Assembly: GCF_000003815.2 (NCBI RefSeq)
Contig: NC_049992.1
Coordinates: 4,786,481-4,850,480, forward strand
Source: Branchiostoma floridae
Lineage: Eukaryota; Chordata; Leptocardii; Amphioxiformes; Branchiostomatidae
Reading direction: 5' to 3'
DNA: 64,000 nucleotides
The notes beneath the pieces were generated by a model. The model had not been told where the DNA came from, ran no database searches, and worked only from the letters and a program-made list of their open reading frames with translations. A program made the translations under genes and the position numbers. How positions within the stretch are numbered: position 1 is the stretch's first letter; every line of letters starts with the position of its first letter. Positions 1 through 38,234 of this stretch are shown here, in pieces.

Positions 1-224
1 GTCATGCCTCCTCGTAATTTAGAGCTCGCAGACTCATCATCCGATCGATTTTCGCCTAATGTGAGGGGGTATTAGGACCCCGCATTATAGACCCTGTCTC
101 CCGCAAAGACCCCGATCTTTGGCACCGCCAGGTGACCACAATAGACTCCACACACCTGAGCTGACAAACGTGGGACGGCGGACCGACCTCACATGTCCTT
201 CCAGAAGGTCTCCCAGGCACGAAC
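1..224. other. unassigned intergenic sequence, repeat end at left edge
   Basis: No coding signal is visible. The first 70 bases resemble 11265-11330: both have a CCGAT..TTTTCG..AATGTGA..GGGGTATTA string. The window therefore probably opens inside a dispersed repeat. Confidence 0.35.
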
Positions 225-850
225 CACACACACTTACAGGAGCAGGCAGGGTGGGGAGAAACAATTACCGTTTGTGTCTTGCTTGGACATGTTTTTATAA
301 AGGATTGTGGGTTCACAGGTGTACTTGAGGTGACTAACTTTCGGTGCGAGTTCGCTGGAAAGTTAAAATTCACTATCACCACAGTCAAGAACAGCACACA
401 CACTTAGAGGAGTAGGAAGGGTGGGAAGAAAGAATTGCTGTAATAGTGTCTTGCTTGCACATGTTTTTATACAGGCATGTGTGTTCACAGGTGATTAACG
501 CCTACGTCACATTTCCAAACCGAGGCCCGGCCGGGCAGCTTTCGGGAACGAAAAGTATGGTACAAAATTGATTAAGACGTAAAGAGAACGGGGGAGAAAC
601 AATCGCTGTTTGTGTCTTGCTTGGACATTTTTTTTATAGAGGATTGTGTGTTCACAGGTGTACATGTACTATATATGATGACTTATTTTCGTTGTGAGTT
701 CTCTGGAAAGGTAAATTCACTATCACCACAGGCACAAACCACACACGCTTAGAAGATCAGGGAGGGTGGGAAGAAATCATTGCCGTTTGTGTCTTGCTTG
801 GTAATGCTTTTATACAGTCGTGTGTGTTCACAGGTGTACTTGAGGTGATT
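225..850. repeat. tandem repeat, about 170-bp unit, about 3.5 copies
   Basis: Units begin near 239, 408, 589 and 755. Each carries a GGTGGGAAGAAACAATTGCCG-like start, then GTGTCTTGCTTGGACATG, TTTTTATA and GTGTGTTCACAGGTG. A family E hairpin element lies at the same place in two units (from 495 and from 850), so the element probably inserted once and was copied with the unit. A weaker remnant of the unit is at about 1215-1285. No protein is supported. Confidence 0.75.
495..582. mobile_element. family E hairpin MITE, truncated
   Basis: This is the left half of a family E element: TAACGCCTACGTCACATTTC, then a GC-rich CCGGCCGGGC stretch, then AACGAAAAGTATG. It breaks off into the next 170-bp unit at about 582. 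Confidence 0.6.
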
Positions 851-1039
851 AAGGCCTACGTCACATTTCCAAACCGAGGCCAGGCCGGGCAGTTTTCAGG
901 AACGACAAGTACACCAAAGTACTTAAGACGTAAAGAGTATAGTCGTGGGTATTACTTGTGTATATGTTTACGTCTACATTTCTATTTTTCGTTTCTACAA
1001 ACGGCCGGACCGCGGTTTGGAAATGTGACGCTAGCCTTA
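850..1039. mobile_element. family E hairpin MITE, full length
   Basis: The inverted ends are TAAGGCCTACGTCACATTTC on the left and GGAAATGTGACGCTAGCCTTA on the right (the first 20 bases are diagnostic). The interior is AT-rich with the family's TAAAGAGTATAGTCGTGGGT segment. It has no coding capacity, so it is a non-autonomous element. Confidence 0.7.
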
Positions 1040-1890
1040 CTCTCACCACAGTCACGACCAATACATTTCTTAAAACCTACTTGTCACTAGGACGGCGCTC
1101 TCTGCGACATAAATTTCCTGTAAGAGGAGCGCACCGGTAAATTTGCCGACTACAACTATATCTCCGCGAATCAACCTCTGCTTAGAGTTTCAATAGATCG
1201 CTCAACGAATTGTATGCAGGTCGTAGAAACAATCGTCGCTTGTGCCTCCCTATGCTACACGCGTGTGTGTTCACAGGTGTGTTCGGACAAACACAGTAAT
1301 TACTAAACTCTGTGCTGTTCATTTGGAGCAACATTCAGTCGTTTAAAGCCTGATGACACCGCTGTGTACAGTGTACATACCCGTGTGTGTGTGTTCTTTA
1401 GTAGTTCTGTATGGATAGCCTGGCTAGTGAACGGGTACGTGGTTTATTGGGGATAAGGCAGAAACGCAGGACGTAATTAAGCTATTGAGAAAGATGGAAC
1501 GAAGTAGGGATCGGAGAAAGGAAAAATAGTATTGCTCGTATGTTTTGATTAGTAATATGAAATATCATAATGTCACATATAGTGACATCGTACAAAATAC
1601 GTTACAAACTACGTAACATGACTTAAAGTGATAGATGTCTTAAAAAGAAGGAAAAAACATGATGTCCTTTCTTTTCTGAAGACTAGCGTGACAGAAGCGT
1701 CTTTGTCCGTCATCTCTGTACAAATACATCGCCATATGGAGAGCGGTCATAGGAAAAACAACAACATAAATTTCGACACTGTTTTGATGTGTGATGTATT
1801 TACATGTATGTTCGATGGCATAGCTGCCTGAAACTCCCCTGTATTACCTTGTGCAATTTCAAAATTAAAACTGATGACTCTAAAGTTGCT
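1040..1890. other. unassigned AT-rich intergenic sequence
   Basis: Apart from a remnant of the 170-bp unit near 1215-1285 I see no conserved protein, RNA gene or hairpin here. Short open frames lack splice context or recognisable domains. Confidence 0.4.
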
Positions 1891-1897
1891 GTTCCGG

Positions 1898-2272
1898 GCT
1901 GAGCAGGTTTTGCTGTTTCGCGCGTTTTTCCAACCTTTGACCCGAGCCATCTGGTCCCGCTGCCTAGGATTCCAGCTGTATTGCCTAGTCAAAAAAAAAT
2001 TGATGAAACGAAAAGTGTGATATAAAAGCCACCAAACTGCACAAGACGAAAAGAGAACAGTCGTGGGCATTATTTGTGTATATGTTTAGTACAACACGTG
2101 TACATTTCTATGTCTCGTTTCCACCCTCGTTTCCAGCCCGGCCGGACCCCGGTTTGGAAATGTGATGATTAGCCTTGCGAAAATCCAATTTCAATATTGC
2201 TATGTCAGGCTAAGCAGGTTTTGCTGTTTCGCGCGCTTTTCCAACCTTTGACCCGAGCCATCTGGTGCCGCG
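1898..2272. repeat. direct repeat of about 65 bp flanking a family E element
   Basis: Positions 1898-1962 and 2210-2272 are nearly identical. Both contain GCAGGTTTTGCTGTTTCGCG, then TTTTCCAACCTTTGACCCGA and GCCATCTGGT. The right copy runs directly into the CSL module at 2261-2395; the left copy ends after GGTCCCGCTG. A family E element lies between them. This looks like a local duplication that copied only the upstream flank of the module. Confidence 0.7.
1998..2176. mobile_element. family E hairpin MITE, left end eroded
   Basis: The right end (CCCGGCCGGACCCCGGTTTG then GAAATGTGATG) and the interior matching the copy at 850 are present. The left GC-rich terminus is missing or replaced by an A-run. 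Confidence 0.6.
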
Positions 2273-2395
2273 CGGGCCGGGAGCGGCGCGCCCAATTATC
2301 CATGTGTAGCGCGTGGCACGTCCTGGCGCGCCTGGTGCGCTGCATTGTGCGCGAAGTGTGGGAAAACCACGCCTCCTCCCGACGACTGTCATCTA
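2261..2395 (+). promoter_or_regulatory. second copy of the Hairy CSL/E-box module
   Basis: This segment has, in order, CATCTG (from about 2258), CAATTATCC (2293-2301), a GGCACGT box, and AGTGTGGGAAAACCACGCC (2355-2373), which contains the CSL/Su(H) site TGTGGGAA at 2357-2364. It ends with TCCCGAC..TCATCTAAAC. The same blocks, in the same order and with the same 62-bp spacing between CAATTATCC and AGTGTGGG, occur on the minus strand upstream of the Hairy gene (20126-20206). I infer a duplicated Notch-responsive regulatory module. No bHLH exon is visible beside this copy, so its target is unknown. Confidence 0.65.
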
Positions 2396-2399
2396 AACT

Positions 2400-2760
2400 T
2401 CATCTCAAGGACATCCGGGCGGAAAGTCAAGGTCGAAGTCGACAAGAACGACGTTATGTCAGTTCTTAAACGTCCTTAAGATCTCAAACTAACGACAGAT
2501 TCGCGTCTTAGAACACGTCCTTGACTGTTTCCTTAGAGTCGATGAACTGTACAAAGGATCTCTACAAGGTCATTGGGGGGTCAAAAGTCAAGCGGCGTAT
2601 TAGAATGCGTCCTTAGAAACGTCTTGGAACGTTCCCACGCGTCGCACCTGCCAGCAGACGTCTGTGTCGGAACGCGGCACAATGTGGCCGGCTAGGTGGT
2701 CCGGCGGGGGGACGCGAGGCACAAAAGCGCTGCAGCGTGGACCAGCTAAAGTTAGCGTAT
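2400..2760. other. GC-rich non-coding island after the CSL module
   Basis: There are many CpGs and a second CSL-type site, TTCCCACG at 2632-2639, in the opposite orientation to the one at 2357. Open frames here are short and match no domain I recognise. It may belong to the same regulatory unit. Confidence 0.35.
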
Positions 2761-3760
2761 TATAGTCTGCATGAACGCCACGGAGTCGACTTCAAAGCTA
2801 TTATTGGGATATGGCCAGAGTATAGTCTCCATACAAGGCTTTTGGCTGTGCTTGTTTTTTTTCGTAGGCCCCCTTTTAAATAGACGTCGATCGCGCTGCG
2901 CTCTCACTGCGCTCTCACTGCGACCAACGTTCGATATCATAGAAAATATAAAAGTGTAACTGAAAAGACAACACACAAAGTTCGTAAAAGATTCTTTTTT
3001 TTCCTACAAAATTCGTTGAGCGATCTGTCAAAATGTAGGTGCTTTATGATTGTATATTGGCTTTGAGTGTATCTGATTTTCTATAGTCTTCCAGCCTAAA
3101 ACAGGGTACATACAGCGGATGTATCATATGATGCCCTTGGTATAATCAGAGCTGATATATTGTCAAACCACTACAAGTGACCACCTTGCCAATGTGACCA
3201 CATAAGGTGGCCTGCTTAGATAATGCTTCATCCTGTCGCAAACCTTAAGAATCCTGTCCATAGCGACCACCTGTCCATAAATTTTATAAGTCATGTGAAT
3301 TAATGGTCTTCTTAGGCAGTTCCAGTAATGTACAATATGTGTGTCAGAAAATAAGACATTATTGCACAAGTCATGATGATTGGACATAGTAATATATTAC
3401 ACGCACCCGCACTTGTTTACACCATTTTTTACTAGTTTGAACGTCCCGACTTAAAAAAAAAAGACTGGCAAGAATTTTGCGTTTTATCACGCCTTCGCTT
3501 CAGTATTTGTTTGCTTGATATTGTATAGTTAGGTGTGACGGATCGTTCAGTGTAATATAACCAGCTGCTGCCGCACCGCGTGCCTGCGAAGCTGGTGTGT
3601 TACGCCGAATGGCGGTTATACCGGCTATATAGATACAGATACAGATATTAATCATCGTACTTCATTAACTTGTATCGTTGATTTTAATTTGCAAAGTTTG
3701 ACATTAACACAACCAGCTGGCTACCATTGTTGGATTTTTTGTCCTCTCAATAAAACCGTT
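2760..3760. other. unassigned intergenic sequence
   Basis: The stretch is AT-rich. I see no supported gene, hairpin element or RNA gene. Confidence 0.35.
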
Positions 3761-3934
3761 CAATCACCGTCATAATAAGTCCCAATACAAAGAGAAAAAG
3801 GCCCGTCCAAGAAGCCTGCTGGTAGGCTATATGTCAGTAGAAGTTCACGCCCGCATCTGTGAGTGAAACCTCGGCTCACACGCTCGACCAGCTGGAAGAA
3901 AGTTCGGCAAATCGCTTCTGACTTTAGCCGCCGT

Positions 3935-4010
3935 GATAATGAGTGAATGAAGACCTTTATTATACATTTTTGCCCAAACGAAAAGTACAGGTCACTAAAC
4001 AGAGCATACA
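3935..4010 (-). mobile_element. LINE 3' tail
   Basis: On the minus strand it reads AATAAAGGTCTTCATTCA and continues as an ATTC-type microsatellite. The same tail ends the LINE fragments at about 29300 and 40410. Confidence 0.5.
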
Positions 4011-4043
4011 TAATAGTATCATAGACCTATAGCTAGTCTAACA

Positions 4044-4171
4044 TAATCTCCAAGCAGATCCTACGGTGCCATAAGATAGTATCAAAGCTGGCCAGGGACT
4101 ATAGCCGGCTAAGGGAGTCAAACGGGCGTTTGATACTATACATAACGCACCGTGGATCTGGTTCGAGATTA
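4044..4171. mobile_element. family C hairpin MITE
   Basis: The inverted ends are TAATCTCCAAGCAGATCC and GGATCTGG..GAGATTA. The flanks repeat GTCTAACA on both sides, an 8-bp target duplication with a possible ninth base. The interior includes GATAGTATCAAAGCTGGCC. It carries no coding sequence. Confidence 0.8.
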
Positions 4172-4424
4172 GTCTAACACAGAAGTTCGGCTTCTTCTAG
4201 CTTCTTGGTATCAAATGGTAAAAATGTAGGTTTGTATGGGTTTAGCAACAGTTGGTTTGTCAAATGAGGAATACAAACTTGTCACTACCACTCATGTCTA
4301 AAGATAATGGCCTCGGACGGAACCGCTTGTGCCTGCTAGGTGTGGGTTTAAAGGGACACCCGCGGGGCTTTAAATCATATGTTCTCTTCTCTCAAAGAAA
4401 AGGTTTGAAAGGACGACATCTACC

Positions 4425-4530
4425 AAATAACAATGGCGGCCGCGATTCTCACGCGCATGGCAACTAGCTAAGATGACGTCATGTCGCCCCGGCCTGGGGT
4501 ATATTGGTCGCCATGGCAACACAGACGCTC
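4425..4530. promoter_or_regulatory. promoter-like cluster: YY1-type, CRE, CCAAT and RFX X-box sites
   Basis: Within about 100 bp there are AACAATGGCGGCCGC (YY1-like, around 4429-4443), a perfect CRE palindrome TGACGTCA (4474-4481), ATTGG (reverse CCAAT, 4503-4507) and a perfect RFX X-box GTCGCCATGGCAAC (4507-4520), in CpG-rich sequence. These site identities are established knowledge of the factors. That they act here is inference. No gene body is recognised on either side, so a non-coding transcript or a distant first exon is possible. Confidence 0.45.
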
Positions 4531-4539
4531 TATTTTTCT

Positions 4540-5227
4540 GACAAGAAAAGTTCTTGGTTTTTATGAAAAACACGAATGCTTCGACCTTTTTTCTAATAAT
4601 AAGCAAGTGGTGTAACACAGATGAAATACGAAAACTAAGATGTAATATAACTATCTAAGATTTACAGGAGACTTTATTGAACATCATTTAAAAAATTAAT
4701 TTCAACTTAGTGTTCTGGGAGTACTTTGTGCGTATTTCCAATGGCCCAGCTTTTTCAATCTTTACCTCCCGCCTTAAAGCAGATAAATTGTTTGGCTGAT
4801 TGTTTTACGGAGATGATGATGATGAGGAAGAGGCGAAGAGGACTGCTTGCTCAAAAAACATAAAAGAATCGTGTGAAAATGATGTACTTAGCTGAACCTT
4901 ACATCTTCTTGGAGATTAGTAACTGATCCCGCGAACATGCAGCACAACAAAACCCAACAAAAGTGCCATTGACGGAAGAGTGGAGTGTGTGGTGACTTTC
5001 AAAGGACGTTATGATTGTGACGGGAACCGGATCGGACATGCCGACCGGGCCACTGCAGCGTGCAGCTGCGGGGTTAAACAAATACAGGCCCGAGCCTGTC
5101 CCGCTGACCGCCCGGCACAATACCCACCCGTCCGCCTTATAAACGAGACGGAACAAATTTGTGTTAACGTCCAGCTGGCCCTATAGTGTCGGAACAAACG
5201 TGCTGGGTCTGTCAGGGGCAGGGTTGG
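4540..5227. other. unassigned, with a CpG-rich patch at 4960-5230
   Basis: The left part is AT-rich with nothing recognised. The patch from 4960 is CpG-rich and holds a TATA-like CCTTATAAACG at about 5134. I cannot tie it to a gene. Confidence 0.3.
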
Positions 5228-5990
5228 CGTCAACAGCAGCTGCTGGGGACTTTGGCGATGTGAATCACGTAGGAGACAGAAATATGGAGCTAGGGCCGTT
5301 CGGATTACGACTTTTGCTGTAATCTACAATCAAATCCAGGGTCCGACTAAGTTTTTAAAACAATTTCACATGTCTTTTTTTAAGAAAAAGAGGCGTATAG
5401 AAAAATTCTGAACTGGAAATACCTATAGCAGATGCTGAGGACTTTAGCGATGTGAATTACGTCCGAGACAGAAATATGGAGCAAGGGCCGTTCGGATTAC
5501 GACTTTTGCCAAAACTTGCGGCTAATCTCCAATCAAGTCCAGGGCCCGATCCAATTTTTTACATGTCTTTTTTAATAAAAAGAGGTATAAAGGAAAATTC
5601 TGATCTGGAAATACCTATAGCAGATGCTGAGGACTTTGGCGATGTGAATTACGTCCGAAACAGAAATATGGAGCAGGGGCCATTCGGATTACGACTTTTG
5701 CCAAAACTTGCGGCTAATCTCCAATCAAGTCCAGGGCCCGATCCAGTCTTTACATGTCTTTAAAAAAAAAAAAAAAAAAAAAGAGGTCTCAAGAAAAATT
5801 CTGACCTGGAAATACCTATAGCAGATGCTGAGGACTTTAGCGATGTGAATTACGTCCGAGACAGAAATATGGAGCGTGGATCGTTCGGATTACGACTTTT
5901 GCTAATCTACAATCAAATTTAGGGTCCGACTCAGTTCTTAAAAGTTGTTTTTACATGTCTGCTATAGATAGAGGGATTGAGAAAAATGGT
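5228..5990 (+). repeat. tandem repeat, about 192-bp unit, about 3.7 copies
   Basis: The string GGACTTTRGCGATGTGAAT recurs near 5248, 5439, 5631 and 5832, giving periods of about 191, 192 and 201. Each unit contains ATATGGAGCAAGGGCCGTTC and TCTGACCTGGAAATACCTAT. One frame stays open over about 1.6 units (5452-5763, 103 aa) because 192 is a multiple of three. That frame is broken in the outer copies, which have deletions and a poly-A run at 5763-5781, so I call it a repeat rather than a gene. Confidence 0.75.
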
Positions 5991-7045
5991 GCGCTGAAAA
6001 TACGCATAAAAAGTCTGAAAAACGTGTGGAAGCACCGAGCATTGGCCTTTTGAATTGCTTGTAAGCCGAATTCTTGGGAACAAGAAATTCGGACAAAAAT
6101 GTCATGGAAGGTTTTGGCCCTGATATTTAGAATATCAATATCATAATGGATTAATACAGACCTTGAAACAGTTCTATTATTGATGTTTTCGTCTATTTTG
6201 ACATTCACATTTTTGCTAGAACACTGAGACTTTCATACAGAGAGCTAGAGCAGTTCTCAACATTAGAACACTGAAATAATCCAGAAATATGCAATGAAAG
6301 TACAAAACGACAGTCTTCCAAGCAAACTTAAAAATACGTGTTAACAACAATGACAAGAGATCAACTTTACCTAGCTATAGTCTGTATGTATCGAAAGTAC
6401 AAATCAGTGACTAGATATCCTTCTTACGTACATACATGAGCTTAATCTTTTACCAATAAATTGTCACCTATGACAAATGTAGAACAGTTCTATGTTTGCT
6501 TGTTTCTGACAATAGCTTATAAAAAATGTTGATACCCGTAGCTAATTCGTTACTTTGCTTATGCTGCCTTTGTCGAGTCTATGATGACTCCTTACAAACA
6601 TGGATCTTAGAGTTGTATCAATGTTTGTCTTTTTTCCGGTTTCCCCAATGCCCACTTGGACCACATTTTAATTTGAACAAGTTTTTGACAAATAATCACT
6701 TGTCTGTACTTTTTCTCATATATTCACTTACGAGTTTAGGAATAGAGGGTCAAGTAAACAATAATCTATGATGTCAAATTTGAAGCCTCTAAGTATATTT
6801 GATTATTCTTTTGTGATTTTTTTTCTGCATCCGACTTTTCCATTCTTCTTTCTGTATGTCATATTTCAACATTTTTGTGTATTCTGTTTATGTTGTGCAT
6901 TCTTTCAAGCACTGATATTACAAGCACAGCTCAACTTTATATCTTTTGTGTAAGTTTGAACAACACGACATTTTGTACAAAGAAATACAAAATGAATACA
7001 TAGAAAAGGCCATGGCATGGTAGTTTAACACACAATACTTTGCTG
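5991..7045. other. unassigned AT-rich sequence
   Basis: I see no conserved domain, hairpin or RNA gene. The hydrophobic open frames at 6526-6953 reflect T-rich composition. Confidence 0.35.
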
Positions 7046-7800
7046 GACTAGCCCCCTGCTGTTGTGATTGCATAAAAGTTGTGTGACCTAACGGCTATTG
7101 CAATGGAGAAGTACTAAAGTCTTCTATTTTTTTCATCAAGAAAATAAGTAGAGTAGAGATTACCGTAGGTATGCTAAGAACAGGTGACTCAAAAACTGTA
7201 CATACATTATTTTTCTGCTTAGCTTGCAATATTTCGAAAAGGGTATGGTAGTTGAACACACAGCACCACATTTGGACTAGCGCCCTGCTGTAGTGATTGC
7301 ATAAAGTTGTGTGACCTAAAGGCTATGAGCTATAGCTATTGCAACGGAGAATGACTTAAACCAACGTCTTCTATTTTTTTCATGAAGAAAATTAGTAGAG
7401 TAGAGATTACCGTAGGTATGCTAAAAGCAGGTGGCTCAAAAATTGTACATACATTATTTTTCTGCTTAGCTTGCAATATTTCGAAAATAGTATGGTAGTT
7501 GAACACACAGCACCACACTTTGACTAGCCCCCTGCTGTAGTGATTGCATAAAGTTGTGTGACCTAATGGCTATTGCAACGGAGAATGACTTAAACCAACG
7601 TCTTCTATTTTTTTCATCAAGAAAATAAGTAGGATAGAAATTACTGCAGGTATGTTAAGAACAGGTGACTCAAAAATTGTACATACATTATTATTTGCAT
7701 AGCTTGCAATATTTCGAAAAGAGTATGGTAGTTGAACACACAGCACCACACTTGGACTAGCCCCCTGCTGTAGTGATTGCATAAAGTTGTGTGACCTACG
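7046..7800. repeat. family I tandem repeat, about 235-bp unit, about 3.2 copies
   Basis: GACTAGCCCCCTGCTGTAGT followed by GATTGCATAAAGTTGTGTGA recurs at about 7048, 7274, 7522 and 7756. The intervening CTTCTATTTTTTTCATCAAG and TTGCAATATTTCGAAAA blocks repeat in step. Further pieces lie at 8078-8183 and 8952-9030, so the array was once longer and was split by later insertions. Confidence 0.85.
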
Positions 7801-7911
7801 ATTGATTTACATATTAACCGGTAATTTGATCTGCTAATTTAAAAATCAATCTTTAATCCAATCTACTGACGTCCTGGTAGGCACTAACCGCCGAATACCC
7901 CGGATATAAAC

Positions 7912-8055
7912 TAATCTCCAAGCAGATCCACGGTGGGGTAACATAGTATCAAACTCACCGGTGCCTGTCTGACTTCCTTTGGCCAGCTATAATCCTTTTT
8001 GCCTTGGCCAGCTTTGATACTATCTTATGGCACCGTAGGATCTGCTTGGAGATTA
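7912..8055. mobile_element. family C hairpin MITE with 9-bp target duplication
   Basis: Ends are TAATCTCCAAGCAGATCC and GGATCTGCTTGGAGATTA. GATATAAAC flanks it on both sides, a perfect 9-bp duplication. It lies in sequence that interrupts the family I array. Confidence 0.85.
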
Positions 8056-8077
8056 GATATAAACAACAACAGCGATC

Positions 8078-8183
8078 GCTCGTATTGCAACGGAGAATGA
8101 CTTAAACCAAAATCTTCTACTTTTTTCATCACGAAAACTAGTAGAATAGAGATCACCACAGGTATGTTAAGAACAGGTGGCTG
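8078..8183. repeat. family I repeat fragment
   Basis: It carries the unit's GTATTGCAACGGAGAATGAC block through GGTATGTTAAGAACAGGTGG, and then stops. The missing remainder resumes near 8952, after the insertions at 8184-8950. Confidence 0.65.
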
Positions 8184-8446
8184 CCCCAGCTGGACCGGAC
8201 TGCTGCCCTCTGATTTTCGTCGTGCCGCCTCAGCTCAGACATTCCGCCGCCCGGACCCGGGCCTGTCATACAGACGTACCGGTGCACAATTACCTGCGGA
8301 TACCTGTCGGAGTTCTGTATGACACCTGTCAATCACTCAGGCCTGGTTAGTGTCATCTGACGGATGGGCTGTAATTTAGGCGTCACTGGGGATTTTTGGA
8401 GCCGTCTAAGGTTGGTAGTCCCTTTTGGAGGCCGTAGGGGCAGCGG

Positions 8447-8645
8447 TAGCCTCCATAGCAGGCTCTCTGAGTATTTCTTCGGTCTTTTTTGGTGCTCATA
8501 ATACGCTTTTGCTGGCCTTTTTGTGCTGGATCGCTTCCACGGGTCACCAGTACGAGCAACCAAGTACAAAAAGAAAAGGTCAGCAAAAGTGGATTATGAT
8601 CCAAAAAAGGCAGGAAAATACCCAGAGAGCCTGCTATGGAGGCTA
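8447..8645. mobile_element. family A hairpin MITE
   Basis: The inverted ends are TAGCCTCCATAGCAGGCTCT and AGAGCCTGCTATGGAGGCTA. The flanks GGGCAGCGG and GGGCGGTGG match at 7 of 9 positions, a decayed 9-bp target duplication. The interior has the family's TGGTGCTCATAATACGC segment. It is non-coding. Confidence 0.8.
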
Positions 8646-8646
8646 G

Positions 8647-8890
8647 GGCGGTGGGTTGTTATCCACTGTGTCTGGGACACGGTATTGTAGTTGGAGTCCA
8701 ACTCTCTCCGCCCTCATCTTTTACCTTCCAAATCCATTTTGAGTGTAGAGGAAACTCATTTCCCAAGGACAGAATATTGGTGGCATGCCAGAGGATTAGA
8801 ACCCAAGGCCTTTTGGTTCCGGACTTTAAAAAATACCATAGAGGAGAGAGATTTGGGAGATGTTTGGACTTCGAAAAACTGATTTCACAC
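8647..8890 (-). mobile_element. SINE-like element with Pol III B-box
   Basis: On the minus strand GGGTTCTAATCCTC (near 8800) matches the Pol III B-box. The plus-strand start GTTGTTATCCACTGTGT resembles the one at 44750, where the same layout recurs. I infer a tRNA-derived SINE family distinct from the one at 25714. The ends are not defined. Confidence 0.45.
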
Positions 8891-8951
8891 AAAAATGGTA
8901 CAAGCTGCTTTCCGGATTCTTACTTAGCACCAATTTGGGATCGGCTATGAT

Positions 8952-9030
8952 AGCATGTTGAAGACACACCACTACCAGTGGACTAGCCCCCTGCTATAAT
9001 GATTGCACAATAATTGTGCGGCCCAGGATT
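8952..9030. repeat. family I repeat fragment
   Basis: It matches the GACTAGCCCCCTGCTATAAT and GATTGCA part of the 235-bp unit and is the other half of the unit interrupted at 8183. Confidence 0.6.
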
Positions 9031-10140
9031 ACAGAAATGGTGATGAGAACCACCCTATGCACTATCCGATGAGGAAAAGACTTTAATTTGGCATATCGAA
9101 GTGTTCAACAGAAAACGGCCGTAAAGTAAGAATGTTTTGAATACTGATACGTAGTATGCATCTAATTGTGATATCTTTGCTGTTATAAAGAAGAAAAGTA
9201 AATCAGTAAACATGTTTGAGATCTAGTGAATAGACGAATTCACATAAATGAAGCCATCAACAATACAAAACATGTCACAACGAAATCAACGTATTAAAGT
9301 ATACAAAATATATCTTTACATTATCAAATACTTCAACTGCTTTTTATTATAACAAAAACATTGATTGTTTTCACCTAATTTTCAAATAGTCATCTTTAAG
9401 ATAACTGACTACCAACATTTGGTGAGTCTAATCTCTTTGGCTTTCAAATAATAATTGAACTATTTCATGTTGTTATATTCTATGTGTTTGTATTCCATAT
9501 ATTGTGTTTGCGAGCTCAACATGTCCTGATATAGTAGTACGTAATGATAAACATTTTGCAGTTATTTCCTCACGTGTTGTTCACTTGGACGTCTCGCTGG
9601 GGGGTCACTGTGGGGTTTCTGGCTACCCTGTTATCAGCGCCGGTAGAGTGGTATAGTTTCATCTGGTGTTACCGCAAATTATAGTAATAGTCCTGCACAA
9701 TAGCGGGGAGATGGGTATGATTAGACACTCAACAAGCATTGCCGGAATCCATGATAACCTGTCTTCAAACAAGGCACCTCATGGTTCTCATCGCATCTCA
9801 TATTTTTCTATGTCGATGGGCTTTTATGAAAAAAGGGTCATTCTTTATTCCTGAATACTTGACCGTTGGGGAACCACAAACGACCTTGCGAGCAATATTT
9901 ACACCCTTACCTCAGTGTTCTACTTTATGCAAGGAGGTTAAAAATCAAGCCTCCTTGCTTAATGTCAGTCCGTTCTCTGGTATTAGCCTCCCGTCTTTTC
10001 TGTTGTCTACACCCCATTCTCAATGGTCCAGGTCTCATGGTTTGAGTTGCTCCCTAGGTTGCTGGAGATAGTATTGGGAAGGAGATTGAATAGCATGTCA
10101 GCGGAGTTGGTCGATCAGAATTACCCAGGTTGGCTCCTTC
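9031..10140. other. unassigned, with one mini-hairpin
   Basis: No gene is supported. A short perfect-arm hairpin GCAAGGAGG..CCTCCTTGC lies at 9928-9958 and resembles those inside the minisatellite at 34800-36475. The 110-aa open frame at 9739 has no recognised domain. Confidence 0.35.
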
Positions 10141-10321
10141 AGGGCGCGGTCACATATAGGTAGTGCGTACGATCGCTTCGGGCATTTTGGAGCACAAAAA
10201 CGTACGTCTGCAAAGTTCAAATGTCTTGGTACACAAATTGCTGTTTTGGATCCATGTCGGTGGTTGGTTGTGTCACAGCCTGTTCTATCCTATCGTGCGA
10301 CGGTCGCATGACATATAATCG
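10141..10321. mobile_element. family H MITE
   Basis: It starts AGGGCGCGGTCACATATAGG and includes GTACGATCGC, GGCATTTTGGAG and TTTTGGATCCATGTCGGTGG. Fuller copies are at 24887 and 58207. The right end is eroded. Confidence 0.65.
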
Positions 10322-10465
10322 CAAATTTCATAGGTAGATGAAAAACGAATCTTTTCGCTTTGATCAAGTGTTTTGTTGTCTTTTCAGTCTTACGTTTACT
10401 TTTTTCGTTTTATTTGAATTATAAAACCAATGGTTACACCTAGGACAACATTTAGGGATGTATCT

Positions 10466-10711
10466 ATAGTCACATTTCCAAACCGGGGCCTGGTCGGAAT
10501 GTTGGCGGAAACGAAACAGAAATGTATACATAAACATAATTTATACACAAATAATGCTCAAGACTATTCTCTTTACGTCTTGTGTAGTTTGGTGCCTTTT
10601 ATATCATACTTTAGACTTTGTGACGATACCAGCCTGCTGCCTCGTGTCATACTTTTCATTCCCGAAAGCTGCCCGGACGGGCCCCGGTTTGGAAATGTGA
10701 CGTAGGCCTTA
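10466..10711. mobile_element. family E hairpin MITE, near full length
   Basis: The left end is CACATTTCCAAACCGGGGCC and the right end GGCCCCGGTTTGGAAATGTG then ACGTAGGCCTTA. The interior contains TTCTCTTTACGTCTTGTGTA, shared with the copy at 32171. Confidence 0.75.
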
Positions 10712-10765
10712 CCAAAGCCTTACGCAAATCCGTAGTTCGCAGTGAGGTCGCCGTCTAGTGGAATG

Positions 10766-11085
10766 GGGTCACCTTAAACAGTGTTCATACGTGCGTCTGT
10801 AGTCCGTATGAGGTCCGTGTGGAATTCTTAGCCTCTACCAGGCTTACAGGTTGCTGGACAAATGGTAGAAATTGACCAAAATAAACGCATAACAATTAAC
10901 ATGCCAGAGGAGCTAGCTGTCCGAGGAGTATAGTTTGCGACCAGCTAACCCCGCAGGCATGTTATCCGTCTATATTTGTCCAATTTCTATTTTTTCTCCA
11001 GCGACCTGTGGAGCCTCGTAGAGGCTTAGACTTCCATACGGACCTTATACGGACTTGAATATATGCGCACGTGTGAACCCACCTT
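10766..11085. mobile_element. long hairpin element with a family D-like core
   Basis: The outer arms are TCCGTATGAGGTCCGTGTGG on the left and CCATACGGACCTTATACGGA on the right, ending GTGTGAACCCACCTT. The inner core has TTAGCCTCTACCAGG and GCGACCTGTGGAGCC, as in family D. Related long forms are at 16985 and 28449. It is non-coding. Confidence 0.7.
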
Positions 11086-11189
11086 ATACCCTGTCACATT
11101 ATCCACGATCTTCGGGCGTATCGATGGAAGATCGGCCATATCTAAGATCGACAGAGGGCTGCGCGTATGTTTCACCTGAAAACCGCCCC

Positions 11190-11330
11190 TGTCACGTATA
11201 AGCCATACTTTGTACCTTGTACAATTGTTGTGCAATAAAGTAATTATTATAAACGAGGCTCGGGCGATTGCCGCAGAATCGTCGTCTGGCCGATTTTCGT
11301 CAAATGTGACAGGGGTATTACACAAATCCA
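11190..11330 (+). mobile_element. LINE 3' tail-like fragment
   Basis: CCATACTTTGTACCTTGTAC then ATTGTTGTGCAATAAAGT matches the tails at 18300 and, inverted, 31680. No reverse-transcriptase coding sequence remains. Sequence after 11270 resembles the left edge of the window. Confidence 0.5.
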
Positions 11331-11949
11331 ATTTGAGTCGCAGAAAGGTCGCAGCATGATCGCCGTCTAGTTGAATGGAGACACCTTAAATCTGTGACTC
11401 CAGCCTAAACAGCAGTCTTTATTCCCGAGCACGCTCGGTGGAACCCCTCAGGCCGCATAACTACCGAGTGAACCGTGAAACTGCAGGTACCCCGCATTGT
11501 AACTTACCTACGCATAAAACAAACAGTCATTCAGGGAAAAATAATCGTTACTTTGATGTCTGTGTGCTACCGACGCGTGCACATCGGTACACACCGACAA
11601 ATCGCTGGCTTGTATCGAGACGGGGGAATGTTATTAAACATTCTTCGCTGTACGTCCGCAAACACTACATCAAAATGTTCAAAATATCTGGTGCTCAATG
11701 TAGCTTGCTGTCAAGTTGGAAACACTGACTGTTAAGTCTTCCATGAAGGACGATTCGAGATAATGACAAAGTTAGAGGGGGGGGAGGTCACACTTCAAAT
11801 CCTTTCTAAATCCGCGATTTCTGATATTCCCATATTCCACTCGGAAGAATCCAAACCTTTTCTTACAGTCTGCCAAGATAATCAGAGAGCTCGACTCCCC
11901 CCCCCCCTCCCTCCCGGGGCAAGACTATGGTGCAGTCGTTAACTTTCAA
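11331..11949. other. unassigned intergenic sequence
   Basis: There is no recognisable domain or repeat family. Poly-G and poly-C runs lie near 11778 and 11898. Confidence 0.3.
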
Positions 11950-12073
11950 TACTCTCCATGTAGAAGTTTGGAGGCTCCCACTCCTTCGGGACGTCTTTCA
12001 ATTTAAGGCTTCTTTCAATCGGGTTTATATTTTGTCAGGTTTTCTTTTCCCATCAACCTCTGCTTGGAGAGTA
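11950..12073. mobile_element. family B hairpin MITE, diverged
   Basis: Ends are TACTCTCCATGTAGAAGTTT and AACCTCTGCTTGGAGAGTA. The arms are imperfect and no clear target duplication is seen. Confidence 0.55.
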
Positions 12074-12086
12074 CCTCCTCCTTTTC

Positions 12087-12397
12087 TTCAAGCTGAGGTT
12101 GGGTCTAGCCTCCATAGCAGGCTCTCTAGTGCCTTATTTTGGCTCATAATACACTTTTGCTGGTCATTTCTGGGTCGCTGATTGCTGGCCTTTTCTGACT
12201 GCCAGTCCAGCAATCAGCGACCAAGTACAAATAAAATGGCCAACAAAAGTGTATTATGAGCCAAAAAAGGGCCCCAGAGAGCCTGCTATGGAGGCTAGTT
12301 GGGTCGCGGAGATAGAAGTGGTCGGGATTTTTACTGACCTGCTTCCCTCGGAAAAATCCCGACCTCTATTATCTCTGCGACCCAACATATGCTTGGT
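12087..12397. mobile_element. family B element interrupted by a family A element
   Basis: The outer arms are AGCTGAGGTTGGGTC and GCGACCCAACATATGCTTGG, with the hairpin interior GTCGGGATTTTT..AAAAATCCCGAC. A complete family A element (12106-12297) lies inside. GTTGGGTC is repeated on both sides of the inner element, an 8-bp target duplication. The insertion order is therefore B first, then A. Confidence 0.75.
12106..12297. mobile_element. family A hairpin MITE nested in family B
   Basis: Ends are TAGCCTCCATAGCAGGCTCT and AGAGCCTGCTATGGAGGCTA. The interior TTGGCTCATAATACACTTTT has a matching inverted copy on the right. It is flanked by GTTGGGTC duplications. Confidence 0.85.
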
Positions 12398-12689
12398 CCT
12401 ACAACTATACATATAAAGAAACAATTCTATACAAGTCCAATACCTTCATCTATGTTTATGAATAGATATGAATAAATCAATATGTTTCTAATAAGGTCTA
12501 AACTTCTTTGATATATATCTCCTTGTTTAATTTATACACAGCAAGGGCTATCTCCTCCCAGAATATTTGTTATGCGGCTATGGCAGAACCGGACGGCATA
12601 TAAGGAAAAGGTTACGACTTCCCACCAATGACAAAAAAAGACAGCATATAACAAAGAGGTGACGATTTTATCTATCGACGGTTGAACCC

Positions 12690-12990
12690 TCTTCTTTGAG
12701 AGTACACCCCTCCACCCCCACCGTGGTACAGTCCTGTGCTGGCCGCGGTCTCCGACCCCGCAGCGCCGGCGGCGTGTCCGCGGGGCATGCGCGCTAATCA
12801 GGGCCTGGCATCGCGGGGCAGCACTTTCCCACGCTGTTTCCACCCCAGCGCGCTAATACCTGCCGACACCTGACGGTAAATGTTTGCACAGGTATGACAA
12901 TGCGGGCCGCCGGCACACCTGTGCGGGATACCTGGGCAGGTAAGAACTCGTGCCCGCACGTGCCCCGGCATGGCCCCGCAGATTTAGACT
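12690..12990. promoter_or_regulatory. GC-rich island rich in CAGGT/CACCTG boxes
   Basis: A 300-bp CpG-rich patch in AT-rich surroundings contains a CSL-type TTCCCACG (12826-12833), two GCGCTAAT boxes and several CACCTG/CAGGTA E-boxes near 12868-12942. It may be a cis-regulatory element. No gene is recognised and the call rests on motif density alone. Confidence 0.3.
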
Positions 12991-13430
12991 CCACAGCAAA
13001 CATTCCCATACACAGAGGCTGGCAACCAAGGACAGCTCGTAACATACATCTTCTGGAGTTCATCTCTTGAAACGTTGTGAAAAATAAAAACAGTGATCTT
13101 GTTCCCCCGGCCTGTCTTGTTTTCTTTTTTTTTTAGATCTATCATACCACAACTACAAACTGGACAGTGGTTCTCAGGCACTGAGCTTGAATAGTCTCAA
13201 ACAACCAATGAACAAGCTGAAAACTTGATTTTATAGAAGCCACTGGCTGTAAGAAAGGTATGTGAAAAAAATGTAAAACAAGGCTATAAATATGTATTTT
13301 CTGTGTACCTGCGTACCAACCCTCAGGAAAGTATGTGTAAAGAAGTATGGATGACACTGTTTAGAAACCACTCCAACTCTTCATTTAGTATTTCAGAAGT
13401 GGTTACAATATACCATTCCCTTGAATACTC

Positions 13431-13752
13431 AGTACATGGACCAGTGCAGGCTAGGTACAGGTAGAAATCAGAAATACCTGGACAGCTTCAATATTACCTG
13501 CACTAACCTGTATATACCCTGTACATAGACAAGTGCAGGTAGACATCAGAAATACCTGCACAGCTCCAATTTTACCTGCACTAACCTGTATATACCCAGT
13601 ACATGGACCAGTGCAGGTTAGGTGCAGGTAGACATCAGAAATACCTGCACAGCTTCAATTTTACCTGCACTAACCCGTATATACCCAGTACATGAACCAG
13701 TGCAGGCTAGTTGCAGGTAGACATCAGAAATACCTGCACAGGTCCAATTTTC
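13431..13752. repeat. tandem repeat, about 90-bp unit, about 3.6 copies
   Basis: Units start with AGTACATGGACCAGTGCAGG near 13431, 13521, 13600 and 13687, each followed by GACATCAGAAATACCTGCAC and TTTTACCTGCACTAACC. No open frame runs through the array. Confidence 0.85.
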
Positions 13753-13759
13753 CAGGCCT

Positions 13760-14609
13760 CTTGGGGCTGAATAGTCAGTACAAATTGGCCGAAGTGGAAT
13801 TGATAATCCGGAGGAGGAGTTAGCCGGCCACAGAGCGTCCCTCAGGAACTAGTAGACATTATCTGGTTACCTTACTCCTCCAGCAAGTGATTTCACCGAA
13901 GATGATACTGTTAAATGACTGAAGGAATGAGATAAGAAAATTATAAATGGCGTCCTTTAAGAAAGTGGTGATGTAGAGAATAGGAAGGAAGATGTCAAAA
14001 GAATAAGCCTACGAAATGCGACAAAATGAAACGCCAAATTTTGTGATATTGTTTATGATGGTCAAAGCTCCTTGTGATGATACAGTGATGTTAAAATGAC
14101 AATGAAACCTTGTGGTAGTGGGATGGATATGATGTTGAAACAGTGGTGATACGATCAGTGCAGAAGGCACAAGGCTGCAAACCACAATGCATATAATTTC
14201 AAATTCATAGATGTTAGCCAACATCTTCTCAACTATTGTCCTCCTCATTGTTAAATAATTTTGCCCTGACGTGCTGCAAAGTATTGTTCTTTTCAACATC
14301 TTCAGTAAGCTTGCGGCGACAATCATTTCAATGTTTCTTACGAAACCAAAAGAAGCTGTCATTCTCTGCTCTGGACCCTCCCAGTGATACTATCATTGTG
14401 CTGCCACGATTGTTCACTGAGCTCGTCTAATCTCTCTTATCGACACGAGAAAATCTGGCTCAACTCGGACAAAAAACGCCAAAATCTCCCCCGCGCCGGG
14501 AGGACTGCAGTTTTATCAGTGAGGGCTCAGGCGTCCCGGGTAATCTTACAGGGGGGACCACTGATACCGGTGTCATGTGTCCTGATAGGTTTGTCATGCA
14601 AATAGAAGG
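13760..14609. other. unassigned intergenic sequence
   Basis: No domain, RNA gene or clear hairpin family is recognised. The open frame at 14009-14362 on the minus strand has no identifiable family. Confidence 0.3.
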
Positions 14610-15175
14610 GCCACTACTGCGACCTATTAGTCTCTGTAAGAATGTACTACAGAGGTAGCAGTGACAAAATGCTTCTTCATAGCATTCACAGAAGTAGATT
14701 TACAGAGAAGTAGATTTTTCCTAATAGTAGTTCGACAATGGAGTATTATTAGTCTCTACAAGAATGTACTACAGAGTTAGCACTGAAGAAATGCCTTTTC
14801 ACAGCATTCACAGAAGTAGATTCACAGAAGTAGATTTTTCCTAATAGTAGTTCTACATTGGAGTATCTCCACAAGGAAGTACTACAGAGTTAGCGCTCAC
14901 GAAATGGCAGAAATTCACAAAAGTTTGACAATGGAGTATTAGTAGATACAAGAATGCACTATACAGCTAGCGCTGAAGAAATGGGAGAAATTCAGCGAAG
15001 TAAATCTTTATAATTACTCATACATATAGTAGTTTGGCAGTGGAGTTGGCTGTCATGCAAAGAGAAGTGACACTACTGCGACCTATTAGTCAATACAAGA
15101 ATGTATTACAGAGTTAATACTAAAGGAATGGTGAAAATTCACCACCAAAGTAGATCTTCCGAAGTAGATCTTTTC
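14610..15175. repeat. degenerate tandem repeat, about 120-bp unit
   Basis: The blocks GCGACCTATTAGTC, AAGAATGTACTACAGAG, TTCACAGAAGTAGAT and TTTTTCCTAATAGTAGTT recur about five times with deletions. It is non-coding. Confidence 0.7.
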
Positions 15176-16434
15176 AGGCAAGTTCACCGTGTTACTCCTA
15201 CTCTTCTAAATACGGTGTGTTAGATTATTTTACATCCAGAGAATTGACACCTGTTGTAAAGAAAATCGTAGAAACCCGTCCGTTACAGTAACACATCTAA
15301 GATTTGAAGTACAATGCTCGAAAATTCTTAAAACCGTCGTTCAATTAAGCCACAGAGATACGTTCCAACTTGTCAAGGTCAAGCTTTGCTGTCGCCGGGC
15401 ACCCTGCAAGTTGCCCCCCTCCCCTCTCCTCCTTAATCACTCGGTAGGAGCGGACCCACACGAAGCCCTGACCCGTGTGCCCACCGTGGGAAAAATCAAC
15501 ATTCTCGACAAGTCGGACAAATAGAAAAGACAAACGAGGTCGCGGCGCTGGACGGATGCAAAGTTTGCTCCAAACCACAACCCGCCATGTAAGGATCGAC
15601 AAACACACGCTGACCTTTAACCCCATATCCATCATGGCCTCCGGAGACAGGTTCCGTCAAACAGGCGTTTTTACTGTTATGGCTGTTTTTAGTCCGTCTG
15701 GTTCTGTCTTTGTTTCTTTACGGTCTCTTTTCTTTTGTGATGACAACAAGGATTTTATGAATACAAGGGGCGTTACATGTAGCGTTTGCTGAATAACAGA
15801 GGTGTGCTCTTATGACTGTAACCACCTGTTCAGTCTTGCACCAATGATTTGATAATGTGTACTTTCAAATGGAGATCAATAAAGTTAAAAGTCAAATGAT
15901 TCATAATACGGCACCTCTGAACAAGGATGACATTTTATTCCTCAAGCGAAACCTAATGCATAATTTGAACCGAATAGATTGTGTACATTCTGTACGCTGT
16001 TTTGTGTGAGTCTGTATGTATCTTAGTTAACAGGTGCAAAAAACATAGCCATAAATGCCACTACCATGAAAACTTCTTAATAAAAAATATTTTCAATTTT
16101 GCCGCCGAAAATTCCACGCCAAAACCCCTCAAAGAACAGGGCAAGCAAGACAATGCCGCTATCTGTCTTCCGAACATCTTCTTAGATAATAAACAAAGGT
16201 CCCTGTAATAGCTGACATCTTGCGTCAAACAAATCACATTAATTTATGACCGGTGCAGTAACAACCCCTATATCCACCGACCCCCTACTGCGAATTACTA
16301 GGTAAGCGTATTTTCTGTGTCATCTACTGTAAGAGAGACTGTCCGCTCGTAAAATCCGTAATTTTCAGTAATCAGAGTCTTCTCTCCGAGCAGAGTTTAC
16401 TACCCGGCTTGTTTTGCAATTGGACGTGTTTTTA
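15176..16434. other. unassigned, possible 3' end of a plus-strand transcript
   Basis: At 15874-15882 ATCAATAAAG gives a polyadenylation-type signal following a 105-aa open frame (15475-15792) that I cannot assign. It could equally be a retroposon tail. I see nothing else in this stretch. Confidence 0.25.
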
Positions 16435-16580
16435 TAGCCTCCATAGCAGGCTCTCTGGGGCCTTTCTTGGGCTCATAATACACTTTTGCTGGCCATTTCT
16501 ATTTGTACTCGGTCCCTGATTGCTGGCGTTTTCTGATTGCCGGCCTCTTGAAGGCCCTAGAGAGCCTGCTATGGAGGCTA
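16435..16580. mobile_element. family A hairpin MITE
   Basis: Ends are TAGCCTCCATAGCAGGCTCT and AGAGCCTGCTATGGAGGCTA. The flanks GTGTTTTTA and GCGTTTTTA agree at 8 of 9 bases. This copy has a shorter interior than the copies at 8447 and 12106. Confidence 0.8.
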
Positions 16581-16601
16581 GCGTTTTTACGAGTTTTTGT
16601 T

Positions 16602-16725
16602 ATTCTCCAAGTAGAGGTTTCGGTCGGGGGGGCATAGCAGTGGTCGAGATTTCATACTGAGCAGCCCCTACTGTGAAATCGCTGCCACTACTATGCCTCT
16701 GACCGAAACCTCTACTTGGAGAAAA
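16602..16725. mobile_element. family B hairpin MITE
   Basis: Arms are ATTCTCCAAGTAGAGGTTTC and GAAACCTCTACTTGGAGAA. GTTTTTGTT occurs next to both ends, a likely 9-bp duplication. It lies only 21 bp from the family A copy on its left. Confidence 0.75.
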
Positions 16726-16775
16726 CGTTTTTGTTGCACTTTCTACCTTTCTTTACGTAATTCTTTACGTTCACC

Positions 16776-16921
16776 TTTCTCCGCGGGTTATCCTATATCC
16801 ATTATTATCCCGCAAACTATTTAGCGATATAAAGTCGAAAACAAGCACCGTCCGTTGATTTGATACCCCTAAATATCCTGTTTTTAAAAACAACGGATAT
16901 AGGTTACCCCGCGGATAATGG
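16776..16921. mobile_element. family F hairpin element
   Basis: TTATCCTATATCC on the left pairs with GGATATAGGTTACCCCGCGG on the right. The interior has CACCGTCCGTTGATTTGATA. Related copies are at 30965 and 51935. Confidence 0.6.
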
Positions 16922-16984
16922 TGGCATAGCGGTATACTGGCCTAGAAATACGTCCACAACATACCGGAGCATGCGCGGACAGTA

Positions 16985-17295
16985 AAGGTGGGGTCACACC
17001 TGCGTATATATTTAAGTCCGTATGAGGCGCGCATAGGAGTATTTGCCTCCACCATGCCACACAAGTCGTTGGAAAAATAATAGAAATTGGACAAACATAA
17101 ACAGGTAACATGTCAGACGAATTAGCTGGGTCGCTAACCATACTTCTCGGTCAGCTAACTCGTCTGGCATGTTATGTAACTACATTTGTCCAATTTGTAC
17201 TATTTTCCCCGCGACCTGTGGAGCCTGGTAGAGACTAAGAGCTTCATACGTACCTAAAACGGACTTGAATATATACGCATGTGTGACCCCACCTT
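16985..17295. mobile_element. long hairpin element (family D core), complete
   Basis: The outer ends AAGGTGGGGTCACACCTGCG and GCATGTGTGACCCCACCTT are inverted repeats, flanked by TA on both sides. The core carries CAATTTGTACTATTTT and GCGACCTGTGGAGCCTGG. It is non-coding. Confidence 0.8.
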
Positions 17296-17739
17296 TAAGC
17301 GAAGTCCACAGATTCCAAGTACAATGATTACACCCTGCCTACACCGAAATGATTTAATTATTTGGGTTGACTTGTTGTCAGTATTGCCATTATCACAAAA
17401 GGCATCTTGCTTTGTTTTGAATGATCAATTACCAACCTTCATGGTGGTTATACCAACTGCATAGGTTAAGTACGAATATTTGACCATCCTACTCAAAGGG
17501 TCAAGGACTCAAGGGTTATAGATAGCATGTATTGATATCAATATTGATTATGAATACAATACACGACCTCTGGTGACCTGATATTGAAACAATTGAGTTT
17601 ATATGATTTATCTAATAGTAGACTATAATGCCAGTGTTCTGTTTGATCTATTGTTGTTGTCAATTTGCTAAAAGTGTTTGAATACACCGTATTTTGTATT
17701 TGGACTTTGTATATCTAGCGGTGTGCTGTTGTTTTACTA
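17296..17739. other. unassigned AT-rich sequence
   Basis: Nothing recognised on either strand. Confidence 0.3.
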
Positions 17740-17825
17740 TTCTCCAAGCAAAGGTTTCGGTCGGAAGAATGTAGTGGAATTTCATACGGCTGTATCATCC
17801 CCCCAACCGAAACCTATGTTTGGTT
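17740..17825. mobile_element. family B hairpin MITE, short form
   Basis: ATTCTCCAAGCAAAGGTTTC faces GAAACCTATGTTTGG. The right terminus is degraded. Confidence 0.55.
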
Positions 17826-18165
17826 TTATTGTACGTAAAGTAAACTGCTCCTGCTCTGCTCTTCCTCTCACTTTGTGGTAAACTGCAATTAACAAATAAA
17901 CAATTATCGAAGTTAACACCATTTGGGTATCAGAATCAGAAATAGAAAAGGTGAAAATGTTACCGGCGGTGCATACCATGATGTAATGTCTATCAGATGT
18001 CCAATGTTACAAATTGGCCAACCAGGTTGACCAATTCGTACGTCAAAGAAGTTTTATAAGCACAGGGAGTCTGGTATATCGTGTTGTGAACTCTATATGA
18101 ACGTATTCATCTGGCAAATTATCCAGTCTAGTTGGGCAAGTTATACTACAAGTCTACATTGGTAG

Positions 18166-18325
18166 CTAAGCATTATATGTTATTGTTCTAGAAATTATGA
18201 TGTCAAATTTCATTCTATATTCATAATCTGCATATGTACTATGTTTAATACTTGTTTTAATAATTAGGATGATAAGTTTGCCATACATTATACCGTGTAC
18301 GATCGTTGCGTAATAAAGTTCTTTT
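18166..18325 (+). mobile_element. LINE 3' tail-like fragment
   Basis: GTTTGCCATACATTATACCG then TGTACGATCGTTGCGTAATA AAGTTC matches the tail of the LINE fragment at 31640 read on its own strand. No coding part is left. Confidence 0.5.
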
Positions 18326-18499
18326 TCTTTTTCTATGTTTCGTGGCTTTGCAAACGATAGATTTAGATGCAGCATAGTTTTTTTTCTCCCAGTGTTTGCA
18401 AGCGATGCTTCAATTATTATGGATGACATTTTGTCTTTCATGTAAATTAGTATAAATATTGCATTCGTGAACAGAAAACATCATTTATACACTATATTT

Positions 18500-18840
18500 C
18501 ACGGAACCCAGCGAGTGTGGAAGGGAGCATGGTGAGTGTGTGTGCCGGTAGCCGCGCGCACGACGCACACATGGCGGACACTCGATCCGGATGTGGACGC
18601 GCGCGGGACGCTCGCCTACAGAACGCGCCGGTCGCGACTACAGCACCGACACGCGACGGAACGGTACCGGCTTGCAGGCGTGACGGCGGGCGGGCAACAG
18701 GCGACTGTTGGGCGGCGACACGCGACGGCTCACGGGTTCACGCTGCCGCCTTGCACGACACGGCTACGGGACCGACACGCGCCTAATGCTATTGACTTGC
18801 AAGGTGTGACGATAGGCCGGCCGCAGAGGAACCCCTTGAG
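18500..18840. repeat. GC-rich degenerate repeat upstream of Hairy
   Basis: This is a CpG-dense block. GACCGACACGCG and CGACACGCGACGG each recur, as do CTTGCAGGCGTGACG and CTTGCAAGGTGTGACG, giving loose units of about 60-80 bp. A related unit sits at 19286-19375. Arginine-rich open frames (89 and 128 aa) follow from the composition, so I do not call a gene. Confidence 0.4.
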
Positions 18841-19029
18841 ATTAGCCTCCACCGTCCTACGGAGAAGCGGGAATCGTAGAATTTGGCAAAAAAAAATCGG
18901 GAAATTTGCCAGTTCACGATAAGGTCTCCCTATAATAGCCTACGTAGTCAGTCTAGTAGGGCTTGGTGAAGGGTTGGACGATACCGGTAGCATCCTTAGC
19001 CGACCGACCACAACAACAAAGTACAAATA

Positions 19030-19070
19030 CTAGATAGGTCCAAGGAGCTTTCATCAAAAGCTCCTTGATA
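19030..19070. repeat. mini-hairpin
   Basis: CCAAGGAGCTTTCATCAAAAGCTCCTTG forms a near-perfect 12-bp stem with a tiny loop. It is similar in size and arms to the hairpins at 9928, 35605, 35763 and 36318. Confidence 0.55.
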
Positions 19071-19099
19071 GATCCAACATCCCATCAGGAAAAAAAAGG

Positions 19100-19260
19100 T
19101 TATTAACAATTATATCAGAGTAGTTTTAGAACCCATGTTTTAGATTAGTCTTAGAAACCATCTCAATGTCATCATGTGTATTTCGTATCTTTATGACATG
19201 TGCTTATCCCGATAGGGCATGAATGTGCAATAAAGGCTATTAATATTATAAGCCTCCAAA
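19100..19260 (+). mobile_element. LINE/SINE 3' tail-like fragment
   Basis: CCCGATAGGGCATGAATGTG followed by CAATAAAGG is a typical non-LTR retrotransposon end. The body is not recognisable. Confidence 0.35.
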
Positions 19261-20050: not shown

Positions 20051-20119
20051 GCGGGGGCACTTATCACTGCTCCTGTTTACCTTTTTCAACATTTGTTTAG
20101 AGAATAGTCGGGACAAGCA

Positions 20120-23740: not shown

Positions 23741-23834
23741 GGCATCGTCCTCCGTTGTAACCACCGACTCGTTTTTTTTTTCGTGGTGAGCAAGCGAAAA
23801 GATTTAGCGGTAAACTTGGGAGGATGGTAACCCT

Positions 23835-38152: not shown

Positions 38153-38234
38153 TACACACTCACACATACACACGCACACAAATAAACACACGCGCACACA
38201 CGCACATGCACACACACACACACACACACACCAG

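Follow-up and report, generated by a model that had tools for sequence, protein, structure and literature searches.

In this study, we observed that the segment 2247-2640 of the window (the whole stretch of 64,000 nucleotides of amphioxus DNA that was analysed) carries two Hairy-type elements in the order, orientation and spacing in which they stand before Hairy (HES) genes, which are targets of the Notch signal. Judged from its letters, this segment, hereafter the orphan, is a Hairy gene's upstream regulatory region with no such gene attached to it. We estimate the probability at about one half that it now acts as a distal, shadow-type, Notch-responsive enhancer of the window's own Hairy gene, 18 kb away.

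Distribution of the module in the genome

The first element of the orphan (element 1; 2259-2373, minus strand) reads, in the direction of a Hairy gene, GGCGTGGTTTTCCCACACT with a CSL site, 53 bases, GGATAATTG, 28 bases and CAGATG. Its 19-bp block, AGTGTGGGAAAACCACGCC on the plus strand (2355-2373), contains the CSL/Su(H)-type site TGTGGGAA (2357-2364) and has no other exact occurrence in the genome than the one at the window's Hairy gene. The genome searched was the 513-Mb assembly that contains the window, and in it the 19-mer was found in six places when up to two mismatches were allowed: the two exact ones are the window's two copies, three on chromosome 14 (15.369, 15.414 and 15.462 Mb) differ at one base, each of them standing in front of a Hairy gene, and the last, on C19, differs at two. 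The C19 match was rejected as a chance match, with its two mismatches and a module profile score of 3.6 bits (E 2.2).

A composite pattern of CSL site, GMTAAT and CAGATG with loose spacing gave five matches in the 513-Mb genome, which are four Hairy genes and the orphan (2259-2364), and none in the reversed control, in agreement with the earlier note, which had held the shared arrangement to be very unlikely by chance. This pattern is strict and makes no census, missing three of the seven module-bearing Hairy genes, namely the two at 9.2 Mb and the one at 15.336 Mb. A module profile built from four Hairy modules, with the orphan left out, matched the orphan at 2397-2247 with an E of 2.8e-8 in 224 kb (about 6e-5 for the whole genome, by arithmetic). 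The match was weaker (E 2.5e-4) with a profile made without the window's Hairy, and with a longer profile extending into the Hairy core promoter only element 1 matched at the orphan. Together, the genome pattern and the profile matches support the proposal that a Notch-type module, with CSL sites, is associated with Hairy genes and has been duplicated.

With the bHLH region of the window's Hairy, a protein search of the genome returned ten matches, of which eight are on chromosome 14; eight amphioxus hairy genes are reported in PMC8320183. The search for copies beside other Hairy/HES genes, which the earlier note had proposed, found the module by profile at seven of the eight HES genes detected on chromosome 14, four of these seven being the ones used to build the profile; E was about 2e-17 at the two 9.2 Mb genes and 2.4e-6 at the 15.336 Mb gene. 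The one gene of the eight at which no module was detected, at 9.222 Mb (L028), gave no profile match. In all seven module-bearing Hairy genes the module lies 396-734 bp upstream of the bHLH exon. At 9.208 Mb (L021/L027), a single TAG interrupts the frame of the HES match, and the module there shares 98% identity with the one at 9.254 Mb, perhaps as a recent duplicate.

A transposon-borne copy was also considered and rejected, the segments 2191-2420 and 2400-2800 having no match apart from themselves and a partial repeat of 75 bp nearby. Dozens of genomic copies unrelated to HES genes had been named beforehand as the mark of a transposon; the orphan is single copy in the genome and is therefore not a transposon.

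Comparison of the two copies in the window

Read directly on the plus strand, the orphan has CATCTG at 2259, CAATTATCC at 2293 and AGTGTGGGAAAACCACGCC at 2355, and the Hairy copy, on the minus strand, has the 19-mer at 20144-20126, CAATTATCC at 20206-20198 and CATCTG at 20239-20234. The 19-bp and 9-bp blocks that had been described as shared are thus both exact in the window, within 2259-2373 (plus) and 20126-20239 (minus). The distance of 62 bases from the first C to the A is the same in the orphan and the Hairy copy, the gap beside CATCTG, formerly given as 27-28 bases, measures 28 and 27 bases in the two copies, and CCCGAC and TCT-AAAC are present in both. Of the earlier description of the sequence between the blocks, the divergence stood and the retention of the boxes did not stand in full, the CACGTG palindrome of the Hairy copy not being intact in the left copy, which has GGCACGTCC in that place with CACGCG adjoining on the other strand.

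Without gaps, the stretch between the blocks is identical at 21 of 53 positions against a shuffled mean of 15.5 (P 0.06), and 161 out of 185,392 random pairs drawn from the same repeat-bearing window scored at least as high as the gapped local alignment of the two copies. The rarity of the arrangement rests on the exact blocks at fixed spacing and not on gapped similarity. Homology extending into the flanks of the two copies was rejected, the search (E up to 1) giving three matches to a repeat shared with 23834-23969 and six of 14-27 bases with E of 0.078-0.95.

The second element

A second element, which is not in the earlier note, lies at 2583-2639 on the minus strand and consists of CGTGGGAA, holding a second CSL-type site (2632-2639), and further on CTTGACTTTT, then GACCCC, by eye a DR1-like nuclear-receptor site. 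The CSL site of this element 2 stands upstream of the first CSL site of the orphan, at -275; in four of the seven module-bearing Hairy genes it stands at -259, -279, -291 and -301, oriented as in the orphan. CTTGACTYYT follows the second CSL site in all five loci (the orphan and the four Hairy genes), with CCAATGRC coming next, by eye, at the orphan and at the 15.369 Mb gene. At the window's Hairy and the genes at 15.462 Mb and 15.336 Mb, CGTGGGAA was absent in the 600 bases upstream. The element-2 pattern, which was composed after the orphan was seen, gave six matches in the genome, these being the five loci just named, all of which carry element 1, and one on C13, with three in the reversed control. 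By itself, a profile of element 2 matches the orphan weakly (E 0.65 in 224 kb), and the element is convincing there through its place and orientation.

That CSL and E-box sites have come together in GC-rich DNA by chance or by convergence could be supposed from the gapped similarity, which random pairs can reach, and from the CSL-type sequence YGTGGGAA, which matches 13 times in the window. Against it stand the exact blocks at fixed spacing, their scarcity in the genome and the presence of element 2 where it would be expected, and we regard it as very improbable; it is largely refuted by the composite pattern, with its empty control, and by the element-2 pattern, five of whose six matches fall at element-1 loci.

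Structure of the Hairy genes

The window's Hairy/HES gene (20614-22867, plus strand; Pfam HLH and Hairy_orange) has an exon marked by a stretch of 17 protein letters, bHLH exons at 20840-20941 and from 21312, and an Orange-WRPW exon that runs to 22867. Element 1 of this gene (20067-20253, plus strand) comprises the CSL block at 20126-20144, GGATAATTG at 20198-20206 and CAGATG at 20234-20239, and the core promoter (20410-20463, plus strand) comprises a head-to-head CSL-type pair with a 16-base spacer and a weak TATA-like TACTAAATAC. The module had at first been called the promoter of Hairy, a name that has to be dropped, the module being distinct from the core promoter, whose TATA-like box stands 236-320 bp further downstream of the first CSL site in six of the seven Hairy genes (two of the six boxes, ACTAAAT and CATAAA, are weak). 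Two to five CCAAT boxes are found in each of the seven genes, 109-249 downstream of the first CSL site. That GATAAT and CAGATG serve a leftward promoter, the one as TATA box and the other as initiator, was rejected on the alignment of four Hairy genes, in which the CCAAT, CSL and TATA-like boxes lie further downstream than GATAAT and CAGATG.

A head-to-head CSL pair with a 16-base spacer stands directly upstream of the TATA-like box in two of the seven Hairy core promoters, those of the window's Hairy and of the 15.414 Mb gene (L011, about 2624-2680), and these paired-CSL promoters resemble that of vertebrate Hes1. In Hes1 and E(spl), sequence-paired CSL sites are described as lying head to head and 15-17 nt apart (PMC7561103). 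The likeness consists in CSL sites as Notch input and in the pair with a 16-base spacer at the window's Hairy, whereas the two CSL sites of the orphan are 275 bp apart and unpaired.

Surroundings of the orphan

Within 700 bases downstream at the orphan, neither a TATA-like box nor a head-to-head CSL pair (15-17 nt apart) was found, and the orphan has no intact CACGTG, no TGTTTAC (Fox-like) sites and no CACTTT. Within the CCAAT range of the Hairy genes it has a single ATTGG (CCAAT) box, at +175, and there is another ATTGG at 68 inside GGATAATTGG. The G+C content at 2201-2400 is 0.61 and the CpG o/e 1.18.

To the left lies a plus-strand gene with weak VWA similarity, below the Pfam curated cut-offs, which is also weakly similar to PTMP1 (E 5.7e-6) and human CLCA1 (E 2.8e-4); this VWA/CLCA-like gene ends near position 4,777,920 of chromosome 14, its last exon ending, by eye, near L008:1441. 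No Pfam family was matched by any of ten ORFs in window 56-14389 (nine of the 20 ORFs of at least 100 aa in window 1-20000, and one of 98 aa), a search that small exons might escape. The CAGATG edge of the orphan has a 75-bp segment (2197-2271, plus strand) that recurs with 91% identity at 1886-1960, 311 bp away, and a dispersed repeat copy (2004-2176) lies between the two segments. Imperfect local repeats of about 80-85% identity are seen at 214-937, left of the orphan. Elsewhere in the window, astacin metalloprotease exons (plus strand) and an EGF-type exon (minus strand) were noticed at 47771-48622 and 60089-60448, and at 38051-38770 a tandem repeat runs as a long open frame of recurring CQSYCLITSS...LPVNHTASSRRLL units.

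The orphan might be the promoter of an unrecognised leftward transcript, of a small or non-coding gene, between it and the VWA/CLCA-like gene. Leftward transcription is what the orientation of the module predicts, and the GC-rich, CpG-rich composition and the CCAAT box at +175 would suit such a promoter. We nevertheless consider this unlikely in view of the 700 bases downstream, with no TATA-like or paired-CSL sequence found, the repeats that occupy most of 214-1040 and 2004-2176, and the ORFs, which gave no family in Pfam.

The earlier statement that no bHLH exon lies near the left copy agrees with our tblastn search of the 20 kb leftward, in which no HES exon reached an E below 0.1. Neither this search nor the genome search, among whose ten matches the nearest other bHLH match on the chromosome is 4.4 Mb off, supports a divergent paralogue that lives on to the left of the window, which had been offered as one explanation and was rejected.

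Another reading, which we hold to be possible rather than probable, is that the orphan is a relic with no present function, the upstream sequence, now decaying, of a ninth Hairy gene that once stood head to head with the window's Hairy, its core promoter and exons having been deleted or displaced by repeats. The leftward orientation is as expected for a divergent gene, several motifs have already gone, and the homology ends about 12 bases past CAGATG (at 2247, the end of the profile match), where it adjoins the 75-bp local duplication and the repeat copy at 2004-2176. Weighing against decay, the blocks are intact at 19 of 19 and 9 of 9 bases and element 2 is intact too, with the spacer near chance; and remnants of Hairy coding sequence, looked for by tblastn with nine Hairy exon queries (E up to 10) in the 10 kb to the left and in window 1-20000, yielded a best match with E 0.41, which is at chance level.

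Relationship of the orphan to the Hairy modules

When the orphan was compared with the seven Hairy modules, that of the window's Hairy scored highest (33, with none of 300 shuffles as high); for the other six, 5 to 163 of 300 shuffles were as high, and the modules at 9.254, 9.208 and 15.336 Mb fell within the shuffles (163, 132 and 59 of 300). GGCGTGG, GATAATTG and a CSL-GATAAT gap of 54 bases are common to the orphan and the window's Hairy only; the gap is 41-42 bases in the four others measured, the 15.369 Mb gene (which has GCTAAT) and the 15.336 Mb gene being unmatched by the expression. The identity of aligned columns between the orphan and the window's Hairy, 0.70, is the lowest of the seven (0.72-0.81 for the other six), and the window's Hairy scores higher with the modules of the 15.4-Mb cluster (46, 38 and 36) than with the orphan; a sister relationship is therefore not secure.

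The simplest origin, itself not secure, would be a local inverted duplication, or an old head-to-head pair from which one gene disappeared. As element 2 is present at the orphan only, of these two, either the Hairy gene may have lost it after the split or the orphan may come from another copy. The orphan keeps 57 of the 74 columns that are invariant in four Hairy modules, while for the 59 variable columns the match averages 35%. Selection on the orphan would leave such a pattern, but the sequence was discovered through its match and the alignment was fitted, and the retention cannot say whether selection acted after gene loss.

Discussion

Conserved CSL elements upstream of amphioxus Hairy genes were reportedly described by Jimenez-Delgado et al. 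2006. The orphan resembles the upstream modules of the amphioxus Hairy genes in its two CSL-containing elements, whose order and orientation are those seen there, and it differs from them in that no core promoter, Hairy exons, intact CACGTG or Fox-like sites were found with it. Our literature search found no paper on the orphan element, and an earlier mention in the main amphioxus Hairy papers is possible.

By a modest margin, a distal enhancer seems to us a better account of the orphan than a relic, because no other HES gene was found within 4.4 Mb, because the orphan has two CSL sites, and because element 2 complements the upstream region of the window's Hairy; the intact motifs could equally date from a recently lost gene. 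Such an enhancer would have arisen by inverted duplication of a Hairy upstream region near the window's Hairy, or by inverted duplication of a whole gene that lost its body afterwards. The Notch intracellular domain with CSL would bind at 2357-2364 and 2632-2639 and bring about activation, Hairy itself, in negative feedback, and bHLH activators would have access through the CACGCG and CAGATG boxes, and the orphan would supply element 2, which is missing from Hairy's own upstream region. The CSL, Hairy (CACGCG), Fox and nuclear-receptor sites are assigned from their motifs, and their binding is predicted.

Shadow enhancers are known, and so are promoters repurposed as enhancers after gene loss. 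The orphan is like them in repeating the regulatory logic of a gene at a distance, within 18 kb of the first copy, and it differs from them in being recognisably like the upstream region of a paralogue and in that its activity is predicted. Tentatively, the distal enhancer may further be seen as control DNA that outlived a ninth Hairy gene, since lost, was adopted by the neighbour and supplies element 2 to it, a history that we find conceivable and somewhat doubtful. In that history the Notch response of one Hairy gene would be split between two places 18 kb apart.

The paralogues of one genome define a two-element Hairy pattern (CSL-GATAAT-CAGATG and CSL-TTGACT) that is searchable in other chordates. 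The orphan is a candidate case for the fate of a Notch-responsive control region left without its gene, be it death or adoption by a sister gene.
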